The notes under the pieces were generated by a model. That model did no database searches. It was not told where the DNA came from and saw nothing but the letters and a program-made list of their open reading frames with translations. A stretch of DNA of 64,000 nucleotides from assembly GCA_016218715.1 (NCBI GenBank), contig JACRDG010000049.1:1-64000 (forward strand), read 5' to 3'. A program made the position numbers and the translations under genes. Shown here in pieces: positions 4,411 through 36,316 of the stretch (the stretch's first letter is position 1; each line of letters begins with the position of its first letter). Source of the DNA: Desulfomonile tiedjei (GTDB lineage Bacteria; Desulfobacterota; Desulfomonilia; Desulfomonilales; Desulfomonilaceae).

Positions 4411-4445
4411 CTCCAACCCTCTCCCTTCAGACGAGAGGGTTGGAG
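4411..4445 (+). terminator. Hairpin terminator after SH3 gene
   Basis: A perfect 13-bp inverted repeat (CTCCAACCCTCTC / GAGAGGGTTGGAG) encloses a 9-nt loop and is followed by CAACTTTT. It lies 47 bases after the stop of the SH3-domain gene and 171 bases before the merB start. A terminator is likely, although the U-tract is short. Confidence 0.6.
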
Positions 4446-4616
4446 CAACTTTTCCCAGGGGGTCTAGCAAGGGAGTAGCTCGTACCAGTGGCCGATCAAA
4501 CAAATGCCTTTGACGAGGGCCGTCCGCAACCCGTTCAACCAAGTCCCCAAGCGAAGTCGGGCAGGGGCGCCGGAGCCTGCCGATCGTTTGGAACACCACC
4601 AAAGGAGGCAACCGCA

Positions 4617-5324
4617 ATGAGCGATCCGACCGTACTGGACAAGGCGTTTCACCTCATCATGAACCGCATGATCGACACCGGCCAGGCGCCGCATTACACG
4701 GAGCTCGCCCAGGAGATGGGGCTATCCACGGAAGAAGGGCGCGAACTCCTTCACAAGCTCTTTGCCGCAAGGATTCCGGGATGGCTCTTTCCCAACACAA
4801 GCTTGATCGCATCTTTTGCACCGTTCAACAACCTCCCGACCCAGTACCGGATAACAATCGACGGCCGGCAGAAGTGGTTCGCCCAGTGAGGGATTGAATC
4901 GCTGGCGGTCTGCTGGCTTTTCCCCGGAAAGACGGTCCGTATCGATTGCCCGTGTCTCGATTGCGGGCTCCCTATCAGCCTCGAAATCCGTGATGGAACG
5001 ATCCTCCAGGTGGACCCCGAAGAGACCACCATTTATGTGGCGGTTCCCTTCTGGAAGTGGTTCGAAGACCTCCCCCATGCCTGAAGCAAGATGAACCTCT
5101 TCCGGTCGGAAGAGCACGTTCGAGCCTGTGCGCAGTTCGCCGCGGGGACTGAAGAAGGGATCATCTCGCTCGATGATGCGATGAAGCTTGTCTCCGGCAG
5201 CTATTTTCGTAAGCGGCTCGACCCGGATTGGGTCTCTCGCAGCCGGGAGTATGCCATGGAAATGCTCGGCACTTTCAAGGAGCTGGGCAAGACCGGCCCA
5301 TTCTGGATGCGGCCGAAACAGTAG
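4617..5324 (+). CDS. merB: MerB-like organomercurial lyase, predicted double selenoprotein
   Basis: Read as one frame of 235 residues with UGA at codons 91 and 156 as selenocysteine. MerB cleaves the carbon-mercury bond of organomercurials using two cysteines and an acid. An N-terminal winged-helix-like region (1-75) has FNNLPTQYRITIDGRQKWFA, typical of MerB. The first UGA follows (WFAQ-U-GIESLAVCWLFPG), where R831b MerB has YAWC96ALD. A CPCLDCG motif follows. The second UGA lies in LPHA-U-SKMNLFRSEEH, where R831b has Cys159. Spacing is 65 residues against 63. Glu94 occupies the Asp99 position. The frame is intact throughout and ends at TAG. The ATG at 4617 has AGGAGG eight bases upstream. 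Each UGA has a SECIS-like hairpin. An alternative is a pseudogene with two nonsense changes, but both changes hitting catalytic Cys codons, each with a hairpin, makes that unlikely. No merR, merT or merA lies nearby. Confidence 0.85.
4887..4924 (+). promoter_or_regulatory. SECIS-like hairpin at UGA codon 91
   Basis: The UGA is at 4887-4889. The apical stem 4901-4906/4912-4917 (GCTGGC with GCTGGC, six pairs including two G-U) closes a GGUCU loop at 4907-4911, 17 nt after the UGA. Below it, 4896-4898 pair with 4918-4920 and GGGA 4890-4893 pairs with TCCC 4921-4924, leaving two 2-nt left-hand bulges. From memory, the E. coli fdhF SECIS has an AGGUCU loop closed by UGC/GCA about 18 nt after its UGA, so loop and spacing agree. 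Such elements recruit SelB with Sec-tRNA. Confidence 0.78.
5082..5114 (+). promoter_or_regulatory. SECIS-like hairpin at UGA codon 156
   Basis: The UGA is at 5082-5084. A perfect 7-bp stem (CTCTTCC 5097-5103 with GGAAGAG 5108-5114) closes a GGUC tetraloop at 5104-5107, beginning 19 nt after the UGA. Loop identity and distance match the first element in the same gene. The stem lies within codons for the conserved NLFRSEEH block, so RNA structure and protein sequence are both satisfied. Confidence 0.78.
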
Positions 5325-6428: not shown

Positions 6429-8438
6429 GTGAAAGCTGTTCTGGATAAGACGACGGAAAAAGATGCCTCCACCGAGCGGCTCTTTGAAGCCATAAAGGCC
6501 GGGGATGTTGAGACTGTAAAGGACCAGCTCGCGAAAGGAGCAAGAGTCGATGCGCTCGATAAGGACTACGCGACCCCTCTCGAATCGGCAGCCCAGAATG
6601 GCTCGCTCGAACTGGTGAAACTGATCCTGGCTAGCGGAGCCGATCTCAAGAGGAAGAATCGTGCCGACCGGCCCGTCCTGGAAGCTGCTTTCGCTACCGC
6701 CCTGCTCCAAGGCCACGGAGACGTTGCCGCATACTTGCTGCCGCTGATCGAGGACATCGATGCGATCGATTTGCAGGGAAGAACCGCGATCGAGTGCGCG
6801 GCCGTATTCTCGCCGGAACTCGTGAAACAACTCCTCGATCGAGGCGCTCAGGTCGACGCAAGAAGCAGAGAAGGGGTGACTCCGCTCATGGCCGCTGCCC
6901 GAGCGGGCAATGTGGAAACGACGCGATTGCTCCTCGACAGCGGCGCCGACGTGCACGCGAAGAGCAAATCGGGACAAACTGCCCTTGTGGCGGCAGCTCA
7001 TGGCGCTCGTTTCCACGACCAAAGGTCTGGAACGGACGATCTCCAGGTAGTGGAGTTGCTCCTGGATAGAGGAGCTGATGCCAAAGAAGAAATTCGCAAT
7101 GGCCCAACGCTTCTCATGTTGGCGGTCAGAAAAGGACACCTGCCGCTTCTCAAGAGGCTTACTGAAGCAGGAGCTGACGTAAACGCAGTGAGGGACTATG
7201 GCTGGACCGCGCTCATGTACGCCGCGGAGACAGGCCGTTCGGATGCTGCCAAGCTCCTAGTCGATCACGGGGCTGATGTCAATTTCCGAAACCAGCATGG
7301 CCTGACAGCGCTGGGACGCGCTGTGGACAGGGGGCAGAATCATATGGTGGGGCAGCTCCTGGAAGCGGGTGCGGATGCCAATGCCAAGCTTAAGGATGGC
7401 TCCACAGTTCTCATGCGTGCCGTCATTGCGGGTCAAACTGATGTTGTGGAACTGCTTCTGGACAAAGGCGCGGATGTCAATGCCAAGACTGCAGACGGCT
7501 CCACCGCACTCACCTGGGCTGCGGTCATGGAACGCCCTGAACTCGTGACGCTTCTCAGAGCGCGGGGCGCCGAAGTCACGCTCCCCGTAGCCGCGATCCT
7601 CGGCGACAAATTCGAAGTGCAAAGGCTCCTCGATGCCGGCGCGGTTGTCAATACGAGTCATGGGGACGGCTGGACAGCCCCTATGAATGCCGTCGAGAAA
7701 GGCCACACTGATATCGTGAGGCTGCTTCTGGACAAAGGAGCCGACACCAATGCACAGCGCAAGGACGGCTCGACCGCGCTCATGGATGCTGTCCGCGGCA
7801 GCCACGCGGATTTGGTGAAATTGCTCCTGGAAAAAGGAGCAAAAGTGAATCTGAAGGATGAGAATGAAGATACCGCTCTCATGGCCTCGGCCACAGGCGG
7901 GAGCCTGGATGTGGCAGAACAGCTCTTGAAGAACGGCGCGGACCTGAACGGGAGGAACAAGCAGCGGATAACCCCACTCATGAGAGCCGCTGCATCGGGT
8001 CGAACCGAAGTGGTGAAGCTGCTCTTGGATAGAGGTGCGGATTTCTCGAAGGACGCAGGTCGAGGGATCATCTTCGCGGTTGCCATCCGGAGTGGAAGTC
8101 TCGAACTGGTGAAACTGCTTCTGGACAGGGGCGCGGATGTCAACGAAGGGAACGAGCATGACATTTCGCCTCTCATTTCATCGCTATCCCAATTGGTGAT
8201 AATGAAACTGCTCCTGGAGAGAGGCGCGGATGTCAATGCGAGAACCCGGCATCATGGAGACACCGCTCTGAATTACTGTATCTGGGACGGCAATGTGGAT
8301 GCCATGAGGCTGCTTCTGGCCAATGGCGCCAAGGTCAATATGAAGAATCGCATAGGCTACACGCCCTTGAAATATGCGGTGAAGGACGGCCGCAAGGAAA
8401 TCGCGGGACTCCTCAAGGCCCATGGAGCAGAGGAATAA
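6429..8438 (+). CDS. Ankyrin-repeat protein, cytoplasmic
   Basis: The 669-aa product is almost entirely ankyrin repeats, roughly 18-20 units of ~33 residues with the consensus 'G.TaLm.Aa..G...vv.lLLd.GAdvN'. No signal peptide or catalytic domain is visible. The chosen start is GTG at 6429, which follows the TPR gene by 18 bases; no strong ribosome binding site is seen, so the start is uncertain. Ankyrin arrays bind other proteins. The neighbouring gene encodes an exported ankyrin protein, so the pair may act on the two sides of the membrane (inference). Confidence 0.85.
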   Translation: MKAVLDKTTEKDASTERLFEAIKAGDVETVKDQLAKGARVDALDKDYATPLESAAQNGSLELVKLILASGADLKRKNRADRPVLEAAFATALLQGHGDVAAYLLPLIEDIDAIDLQGRTAIECAAVFSPELVKQLLDRGAQVDARSREGVTPLMAAARAGNVETTRLLLDSGADVHAKSKSGQTALVAAAHGARFHDQRSGTDDLQVVELLLDRGADAKEEIRNGPTLLMLAVRKGHLPLLKRLTEAGADVNAVRDYGWTALMYAAETGRSDAAKLLVDHGADVNFRNQHGLTALGRAVDRGQNHMVGQLLEAGADANAKLKDGSTVLMRAVIAGQTDVVELLLDKGADVNAKTADGSTALTWAAVMERPELVTLLRARGAEVTLPVAAILGDKFEVQRLLDAGAVVNTSHGDGWTAPMNAVEKGHTDIVRLLLDKGADTNAQRKDGSTALMDAVRGSHADLVKLLLEKGAKVNLKDENEDTALMASATGGSLDVAEQLLKNGADLNGRNKQRITPLMRAAASGRTEVVKLLLDRGADFSKDAGRGIIFAVAIRSGSLELVKLLLDRGADVNEGNEHDISPLISSLSQLVIMKLLLERGADVNARTRHHGDTALNYCIWDGNVDAMRLLLANGAKVNMKNRIGYTPLKYAVKDGRKEIAGLLKAHGAEE

Positions 8439-8453: not shown

Positions 8454-10121
8454 ATGAGATCTGCATACCGGTTAGTCTTGTGCTTGATCGTCTCTGGCCT
8501 TGTTCTTGTTTCGGGGCAGGGCACGGCGGACATTACGCCGATGGATTACAGCCCGCCCCCAAGTGGCGGAGGGGTTTCACCGAAATCGCCGCATCCGACC
8601 ATTCGTCTGGACGATCAGGAGGTGATTATCCGATTGAAACCTTTCACGTACACGGTGGACGCGGTCTTTCACCTGTCCAACACCGGCGAGACGGCCACGC
8701 AATGGATCGGCTTCCCCAAGAATGCCACGGGGCGTGGTCCCGGCCCGCACGGCAAGGTCAGGGACTTCATTCGATTTGAGGTGACGGTAAACCAAAACAA
8801 GGTGCCGTTCACAGAGGAGCGTGAACTCGTCAAGCCGGTGTCTGACCATCGAAACAGGTCAGTCTCGCGCGTCGAGAAGCATTCTGCCTGGCTGGTGGGG
8901 CAAGCTGCTTTCCCAGGTAATGCGACAACCACCATTCGTGTCAGGTACGAGGCACCGTACGATCATTGCGGAATGGGTTGCACGAAGGCAGTCTACATCT
9001 ACGGGACCGGCGGATATTGGAAAGACAGCATCGGAAAGGCTGCTTTTATCGTAGACAGCACGGAAAAAAGGGACACAGATCGGGCAAGGGTACAGTTTTC
9101 CGTCTCTGAGGCTGAAAAGCACGCCATCCGCAAGAGGGTGATCTCTGAGAATATCGCGAAGTACGTAATCCAGGACTTCGAGCCGAACCCGGACAGCGCA
9201 TTGACTGTTGCGTTCACGAAGCGTCAGCTCGGAATGAGCGGCGACGTAAACGAACTCATTCACGCCGCCATGAACGGTCGTCTGGAACAGGTGCAGGCGC
9301 TCCTGAAGAAGGGGGTTGACGTCAACGCATCGAGCGGGTTTGGCGGGCAGTCACCACTCATGAGCGCCGCATACGGAGGCCATTTAAAGGTTGCCAAGCT
9401 GCTCGTGGAAAAGGGCGCGGACGTGAATGCCGAGACCAAAGACGGCAAGACCGCACTGAAGGAGGCGCTGGGACAAGCATGGCTCGGCAGAGGGCAGCTC
9501 GAAGTAGCGAAATTCCTAAGAGATCGTGGCGCGAAGCCAAAGACCTTATCGGTTGCTGCATTTGTCGGGGATATGGACACCGTTCAAGCTCTTGCCGCAG
9601 ATGGAGTCGATAGCAACGCAAAGGACACCCTGGATGAACCTGCCCCACTGAAAGCCGCTGCAATGGGCGACCGGACAGACGTGGTGAAGTTTCTTCTCGA
9701 TAAAGGCTTCCCTGTCGATGCGAAAAGCAAGCAAGGACAGACTGCCCTTATGGTGGCTGCTGCTGCAGGTCACGCGGAGGTGGTGCAATTACTGCTGGAC
9801 CGGGGAGCGGATGTCAACGCGCAGGATGTGCATCTCAGGACAGCACTGAACGGTGCTGTCTGGCTTCGCGGTCATCTGGAAGCTGCAAAAGTTCTTCTGG
9901 ATAGTGGAGCCAATATTCATGCAAGGGATGACCCGGCCGGCCGGACGGTCCTGATACACGCAGCGCAAGGCGGTCATTTGAAACTCGTAAGACTGCTTCT
10001 GGAAAGAGGTGCTGATGTCAACGCAAGGGATAATGCAGGCCGGACAGCTCTGAGTCTCGTTCAAGGAGAGGATATCGAAGAAATCGAGAAGGTCCTGAAA
10101 GCTCACGGTGCAAAGAAGTAA
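8454..10121 (+). CDS. Exported protein: beta-rich domain plus ankyrin repeats
   Basis: The 555-aa product has a signal peptide (about 1-25, ending SGQGTA). A ~230-residue N-terminal domain follows, with HLSNTGETATQWIGFP and paired cysteines in DHCGMGCTKAVY; it resembles DUF4424-type beta-sandwich domains by eye. From about residue 262 to the end there are seven to eight ankyrin repeats. GGCAGGAGAG lies just before the ATG. It sits 15 bases after the cytoplasmic ankyrin gene, suggesting one transcript. The protein is probably periplasmic. Confidence 0.75.
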   Translation: MRSAYRLVLCLIVSGLVLVSGQGTADITPMDYSPPPSGGGVSPKSPHPTIRLDDQEVIIRLKPFTYTVDAVFHLSNTGETATQWIGFPKNATGRGPGPHGKVRDFIRFEVTVNQNKVPFTEERELVKPVSDHRNRSVSRVEKHSAWLVGQAAFPGNATTTIRVRYEAPYDHCGMGCTKAVYIYGTGGYWKDSIGKAAFIVDSTEKRDTDRARVQFSVSEAEKHAIRKRVISENIAKYVIQDFEPNPDSALTVAFTKRQLGMSGDVNELIHAAMNGRLEQVQALLKKGVDVNASSGFGGQSPLMSAAYGGHLKVAKLLVEKGADVNAETKDGKTALKEALGQAWLGRGQLEVAKFLRDRGAKPKTLSVAAFVGDMDTVQALAADGVDSNAKDTLDEPAPLKAAAMGDRTDVVKFLLDKGFPVDAKSKQGQTALMVAAAAGHAEVVQLLLDRGADVNAQDVHLRTALNGAVWLRGHLEAAKVLLDSGANIHARDDPAGRTVLIHAAQGGHLKLVRLLLERGADVNARDNAGRTALSLVQGEDIEEIEKVLKAHGAKK

Positions 10122-35962: not shown

Positions 35963-36316
35963 TGGTGGAGGCGGCGGGAATCGAACCCGCGTCCGAGAAT
36001 CTTCAGCCGAAGGCGTCTACATGCTTATCCCGACTTTTGTGTCTCGTCCGAGGGGACCCGATCAGGCGCGGTTCCCGGCAGACCAGCCCGCTAAGCTTTT
36101 CGCGTCAGCCCCAACAGGCACGGGGCATCAGCTATCCCGCTGTGCTCGCTTCTTCCATCCCCACGGGAAAAGAACGGAGAAGCGCTAGCCTACGCGGCTA
36201 GAGCGTACTCGTAGTTATTGGCGAGTATTTTTATGCACCGGCGGATTAACGAGTCACCGGAGTGCTCGACATGCAGCCTTGACCTCAACTATCCCCGTCG
36301 AAACCGGATCGCCCCC
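35963..36316 (-). ncRNA. ssrA: Transfer-messenger RNA (tmRNA)
   Basis: On the minus strand the 5' end GGGGGCGATCCGGTTTCGAC and the 3' end GGTTCGATTCCCGCCGCCTCC-ACCA form the tRNA-like domain; a 7-bp acceptor stem pairs GGGGGCG with CGCCTCC, and CCA is encoded (36316 and 35963 are the termini). The tag reading frame at 36222-36190 encodes ANNYEYALAA followed by TAG, a typical degradation tag. The RNA rescues stalled ribosomes together with SmpB, whose gene lies 71 bases upstream on the same strand. Confidence 0.96.

Follow-up and report, generated by a model that had tools for sequence, protein, structure and literature searches.

A MerB-fold protein family with UGA codons at both metal-binding positions, predicted to be a double-selenocysteine organometal lyase

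A MerB-like gene of Desulfomonile tiedjei carries in-frame UGA codons at both positions where MerB has its metal-binding cysteines, a conserved double replacement that many anaerobic bacteria share. The double UGA, a conserved protein, SECIS-like hairpins, the selenocysteine (Sec) machinery and a MerB fold are shown here by computation, while the insertion of Sec, any catalysis, the substrate and the role in the cell are all inferred. An earlier note, made from the sequence alone, had read the gene as a double-Sec MerB homologue acting on organomercury; the first part of this reading is supported, and the substrate is an inference only. We infer by computation, without any experiment, that Sec is very probably incorporated at both sites, codons 91 and 156, and that the product is likely to be a double-Sec MerB-type organometal lyase.

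Two in-frame TGA codons conserved in a translated gene

The gene lies at positions 4617-5324 (+ strand) of the window, the whole 64,000-nt stretch of DNA analyzed here, taken from contig C3 of a 5.55 Mb assembly (completeness 99.99%, contamination 3.71%). It is a single open frame of 235 codons, interrupted only by TGA at codon 91 (4887-4889, +) and codon 156 (5082-5084, +) and ended by a TAG stop after codon 235, with an AGGAGG ribosome-binding site (4603-4608, +) 8 nt upstream of the ATG. On inspection of the sequence, the coordinates, the frame, both TGA positions and the AGGAGG motif given in the earlier note all held.

A search of 148 related genomes, the window's own included, found matches to the gene in 22. 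At 16 places in 13 genomes, with at least 44% identity over most of the query, there are exactly two in-frame TGAs, which fall at the same two columns in 16/16; at one more close place (L014) the similarity ends after codon 81. A scan of named GTDB genomes gave 148 relatives among 158 stretches, and of the best 80 relatives, 77 are TGA/TGA and 3 TGC/TGA. We pooled all loci with tblastn E ≤1e-30, removing exact duplicates and leaving out four fragmentary loci (L014, L146, L147 and L148). The resulting 89 distinct genes comprise 86 TGA/TGA and 3 TGC/TGA (L115, L119, L120), column 91 thus being TGA in 86 and TGC in 3, and column 156 TGA in 89/89. Because 86 of 89 distinct relatives carry both TGAs, a chance double TGA is excluded. 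In an even draw of 395 genomes from within the phylum, 43 have a match and 23 a full double-TGA gene (table count), and plasmids gave no match at E 1e-10. The titles of the GTDB records, in which taxon names are labels of metagenome bins, are mainly deltaproteobacterial (Syntrophaceae, Desulfobacteraceae, Desulfarculus and others), with a few Chloroflexota and other Proteobacteria, and single Spirochaetes, Poribacteria, Abyssobacteria and Nitrospinae. Two of the omitted loci, L146 and L148, are disrupted copies that match in two pieces with both TGAs kept, reflecting either assembly error or decay.

To measure selection on either side of the TGAs, we used 55 gene pairs with 78-99% DNA identity, which are not independent of one another. 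The dN/dS ratio is 0.106 before UGA91 (the last 50 codons), 0.116 between the two UGAs and 0.143 after UGA156, and the similarity of the three values shows that the protein downstream of the TGAs is translated. These data bear on the possibility that the gene is a pseudogene with two nonsense mutations, or the product of sequencing error. Some relatives do look broken (L014, L146 and L148), as this possibility would predict; against it, 86 distinct genes share the identical pair of TGAs and each of the three segments is under purifying selection, and sequencing error is untenable since the same two TGAs occur in many separate assemblies. Recurrence, dN/dS and the codon bias described below refute this reading for the family, and we consider it all but excluded.

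Selenocysteine machinery and SECIS-like hairpins

A genome lacking selB or selC would have refuted the Sec reading, as the earlier note pointed out. The genome that holds the window passes the cut-off for all four genes: selC (71.3 bits, cut-off 47), selB (384, cut-off 242), selA (590, cut-off 268) and selD (370, cut-off 125). Across 14 control genomes, the selC, selB, selA and selD models exceed their cut-offs in 5, 2, 1 and 2, respectively. Among the relatives, a selA match (E ≤0.001) is present in 12/13 double-TGA genomes vs 120/135 others; among the named carriers, selA is above cut-off in 43/49, weak in 2 and without a match in 4. In G030, a carrier that lacks selA, the contig bearing the merB-like gene is 4.1 kb long. 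With selA found in almost every genome of the sample, its presence discriminates little and amounts to a consistency check; as a test of the Sec reading, selA co-occurrence failed. Separately, in the selD of the window's genome (L124, contig C85, 75991-76908), codon 11 of the match is an in-frame TGA with a strong predicted hairpin after it, and SelD itself is probably a selenoprotein.

Each TGA is followed by a predicted hairpin of the kind expected of a SECIS element, on which no experiment has been done. Hairpin 1 (4901-4917, +) has six pairs, two of them G-U, and a GGTCT loop (4907-4911) that begins 20 nt after the U of UGA91; hairpin 2 (5097-5114, +; CTCTTCC-GGTC-GGAAGAG) has its loop at 5104-5107, beginning 22 nt after the U of UGA156. 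The placement of the hairpins and their loops agree with the bSECIS model as set out in a review of prokaryotic selenoproteins (PMC13188914). At gathering thresholds, no Rfam SECIS family matched in the window, and SECIS_1 (RF00031) had no match in the genome, a result that is uninformative, the model being silent in all 14 control genomes too.

We compared the folding energy of the 48 nt from each UGA with that of shuffles keeping the protein and the codons of the gene. The mean z is −1.91 at UGA156 (88 genes), and at the seven control positions (59-60 genes each) it ranges from −0.40 to +0.31; at UGA91 it is −0.53 (86 genes), barely past the lowest control. Codon choice in the 86 double-TGA genes, with expected values drawn from the same genes, is strongly skewed after both sites. 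After UGA91, Ser95 is TCG in 76/77 (expected 21.9), Leu96 CTG in 80/86 (28.1), Ala97 GCG in 70/86 (25.0) and Val98 GTC in 77/85 (29.2); after UGA156, Phe162 is TTC in 86/86 (46.1), Arg163 CGG in 85/85 (25.9), Ser164 TCG in 85/85 (24.1) and Glu165 GAA in 82/86 (49.3). The biased codons spell out the stem and loop of both hairpins.

The loop motif GGTC stands 22 nt from the U of UGA156 in 83/85 genes (one region runs off its contig) and 20 nt from the U of UGA91 in 69/86, the 17 others having AGTC or AGTT (13), CGTG (3) or GGCC (1). The outer pair of hairpin 2, formed by the first base of codon 161 (Leu/Phe) and the last base of codon 166 (GAG/GAA), covaries, being C-G in 46, T-A in 28, T-G in 5, C-A in 4 and otherwise in three. 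For hairpin 1, no covariation was found among the 86 double-TGA genes because its pairs, which form in 85 or 86 of 86, hardly vary. Given the weak folding energy, the absence of covariation and GGTC in only 69/86, the case for a SECIS element at the first site rests on codon bias. The three Cys91 genes all keep GGTC at the second site, and at the first it is kept by L119 and missing from L115 and L120.

A further alternative is that UGA is read as Cys or another residue, for example as Cys via the Sec machinery under selenium scarcity; loading of Cys through this machinery at low selenium occurs elsewhere. In its favor, Cys is found at column 91 in L115, L119, L120 and distant homologues, and Cys would probably work there. 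Against it stand the SECIS-type hairpins with a complete Sec machinery, and TGC or TGT is far too rare (3/89 at column 91, 0/89 at column 156). We therefore judge this alternative very unlikely and retain Sec as the reading of both codons.

MerB fold, active-site columns and relation to known selenoproteins

With the TGAs set to Cys, the protein scores 64.7 bits with the Pfam MerB model PF03243, above the gathering cut-off of 27. It does not pass the NCBIfam MerB models NF009710 (36 bits, cut-off 193) and NF033555 (30.4 bits, cut-off 200). A phmmer search against the PDB pairs residues 91, 94, 113 and 156 with Cys96, Asp99, Cys117 and Cys159 of MerB, and a profile built from 56 relatives reproduces this pairing. 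The columns are named by the MerB residue numbering, which matches the residues named in a merB survey (PMC12874090). The placement of the TGAs at the Cys96 and Cys159 columns in the earlier note held accordingly.

An AlphaFold2 model from the 56-row alignment (pLDDT 95.3, pTM 0.90) was used for structure comparison. The top 11 chains found by Foldseek are all MerB or MerB2, and VIA-align gave Z 17.2 for MerB2 (PDB 5c17; 193 residues, 3.9 Å) and Z 16.0 for MerB (PDB 3f0o, 3f2f), with unrelated folds at or below 5.6, showing that the protein, as modeled, has the MerB fold. Identity to MerB and MerB2 is 18-23%. The metal-binding positions are 65 residues apart, vs 63 in MerB, and the Cys117 column is retained as Cys113, part of a Cys113-x-x-Cys116 motif (4953-4964, +); in contrast to MerB and MerB2, both metal-binding Cys columns are UGA. 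Asp99 of MerB is the proton-transfer residue. Its column, on which the earlier note was silent, holds Glu94 in the window protein (4896-4898, +) and Glu in 89/89 distinct genes, and Ser in MerB2 (PDB 5c17, phmmer alignment). The survey, which relies on Prodigal gene calls, discarded merB genes without Cys96, Asp99, Cys117 and Cys159. By this filter, the window protein fails at Asp99, and it also fails at Cys96 and Cys159 as written, where UGA counts as equivalent only when translated as Sec or Cys.

Had no homologue shown Cys in the two columns, the Sec reading would have been refuted; Cys was found at both. Distant places, 25-33% identical to the query, mostly have no internal stop, and in the seven distant homologues aligned by tblastn, Cys stands at column 91 in 7/7 and at column 156 in five. 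Six of them (L015, L016, L018, L019, L020 and L025) have Cys at column 91, five at both columns, the alignment of L019 ending before column 156; L021 has TGA at 156. This pattern indicates that the wider family mostly uses Cys at these positions. In a tree, the three Cys91 rows share a supported clade with a single double-Sec row, L118; as the branches to the distant Cys/Cys rows are long and the root was placed only for drawing, we make no claim on the ancestral state. Two distant MerB homologues were observed with TGA, L021 (1501-1941, +) at the second position only and L022 (1501-2013, −; 28% identical) at both, where the second TGA is followed by TTCTTCCGGTCGGAAGAA, the same hairpin as in the family of the window gene. 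Sec use therefore reaches beyond the close double-TGA subfamily.

MerB-related selenoproteins have been predicted before. The May 2026 review (PMC13188914) names MerB only in the row for SaoL (NF040728), the MerB-like organometallic lyase in the SAO system, for which it gives a single Sec and the motif CU. PMC9312934 includes an "alkylmercury lyase MerB-like protein" among predicted selenoproteins, without detail in the passage, and PMC7435645 does so for a bacterial "organic mercuric lyase MerB2". With single-Sec SaoL and this "MerB2" already listed, a MerB selenoprotein as such is therefore not new, and the earlier note's remark that no characterized Sec-containing MerB was known held only in part. 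SaoL is also the best NCBIfam match of the window protein (47.8 bits, cut-off 140 not reached), spanning residues 13-139 and leaving column 156 outside, but it has one Sec where the window protein has two. The "MerB2" entry, likewise a prediction of a MerB selenoprotein, comes without sequence, organism or number of Sec residues, and it may or may not be the double-TGA family. Two Sec at a probable metal site are also predicted, in the review table, for the metal-binding protein NF041115 (putative mercuric reductase, UxxU), which belongs to a different protein family and has its Sec residues three apart. A double-Sec MerB was not described in the literature searched, from which primary SaoL papers and supplementary files were outside scope, and the term "merb" is absent from PMC2398784, PMC5029168 and PMC12013277. 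Within that literature, we found no account of a MerB in which both metal ligands are replaced, of its two SECIS elements, of how broadly the family is distributed or of its link to hgcA.

Genomic context and proposed function

The window gene is flanked on one side by a gene whose SH3 match is below threshold and on the other by genes for TPR and ankyrin proteins. No mer gene was recognized among ten neighbor proteins scanned with Pfam (six window genes and four recurrent neighbors only), which sets the gene apart from MerB and MerB2. Across 81 loci (the window and L043-L122), we found no conserved operon, the commonest neighbor cluster, exemplified by a CCG cysteine-rich protein, occurring in 11/81, and no conserved neighborhood linking the family to mercury.

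Other features were noted in the vicinity. An inverted repeat seen by eye upstream of the merB-like gene (4413-4443, CCAACCCTCTC...GAGAGGGTTGG), absent from the program's scan list, is possibly the terminator of the preceding gene. Two long ankyrin-repeat proteins are encoded in tandem (6429-8438 and 8454-10121) 3′ of the TPR protein, and the window also holds a tmRNA gene (35963-36316, −; Rfam RF00023, 182 bits). In L063, a C_GCAxxG_C_C gene (PF09719; 5718-6341) lies downstream of the merB-like gene on the same strand; its cluster is present in 6/81 loci, for four of which the listed distance ranges from 16 to about 1,150 nt, and PMC13188914 lists it as a selenoprotein family.

With the ten best candidates scored per genome, no MerA above cut-off was found in the window's genome, and 7/148 relatives have one, including two of the 13 carriers (G087 and G122). 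HgcA was called at E ≤1e-60, which includes three matches below the curated cut-off in each set; no control genome passed that cut-off. In the phylum draw, hgcA is present in 19/23 double-TGA genomes vs 98/372 others (Fisher p 9e-8, uncorrected for ancestry, genomes with only broken copies counted as others), the carriers without it being G050, G227, G229 and G270. The overlapping set of relatives gave 11/13 carriers vs 36/135 others. Stratified by family (five carrier-holding families, 51 genomes), the association has z 2.9, or 2.4 with continuity correction, and the enrichment is due in part to shared ancestry.

We propose the following model, in which every step is inferred and the chemistry, for which the MerB mechanism is the basis, is by analogy. 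SelB, guided by the SECIS hairpin directly after each UGA, would insert Sec91 and Sec156, giving a complete 235-residue MerB-fold protein with Sec at both mercury-binding positions. One selenolate would attack the mercury of the substrate, an organomercurial and most probably methylmercury; both would hold the metal, and Glu94, in place of Asp99, would handle the proton leaving with the carbon, yielding a hydrocarbon and selenium-bound Hg(II). In these anaerobes, which would act without a mer operon, the role would probably be breakdown or buffering of methylmercury, part of which HgcAB in the same cell would produce. Organometal lyase activity is likely on this inference, without experiment on catalysis; cleavage of a carbon-mercury bond is inferred by analogy, without enzymology, and we lean only slightly toward methylmercury as the physiological substrate. 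Against the model count the absence of any experiment, of a recognized mer neighbor and of a MerA above cut-off, and the Glu at the Asp99 column.

It remains possible that this is a double-Sec MerB-fold protein with another natural substrate, either a different organometal or organometalloid, or Hg(II) that is only trapped. This would be consistent with the lack of a recognized mer gene around the window gene, with 11/13 checked carriers having no MerA above cut-off, with Glu at the Asp99 column in 89/89, and with the top-scoring NCBIfam model, SaoL, being named an organometallic lyase. Both metal-ligand columns are nevertheless retained, as are the Cys117 column and the whole fold, and the hgcA enrichment in carriers points to mercury. 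We hold this alternative to be the less likely reading, though a real possibility.

A bolder reading is that these proteins are widespread, unrecognized methylmercury demethylases with a diselenolate metal site, working inside mercury-methylating anaerobes and setting their net methylmercury output; we judge this slightly less probable than not. The class would have escaped notice as gene callers end the frame at the first UGA and surveys require Cys96, Asp99 and Cys159. Gene-finding programs probably truncate the enzyme at its apparent stops, and the double-TGA family is, by inference, invisible to surveys such as PMC12874090, yet it is present in hgcA-carrying lineages. Selenium binds mercury strongly. 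If Sec does occupy both ligand positions, the protein would offer a natural diselenolate mercury site in a detoxifying lyase, in which the affinity of selenium is used for catalysis, and the handling of methylmercury by anaerobes without a mer operon becomes directly testable.
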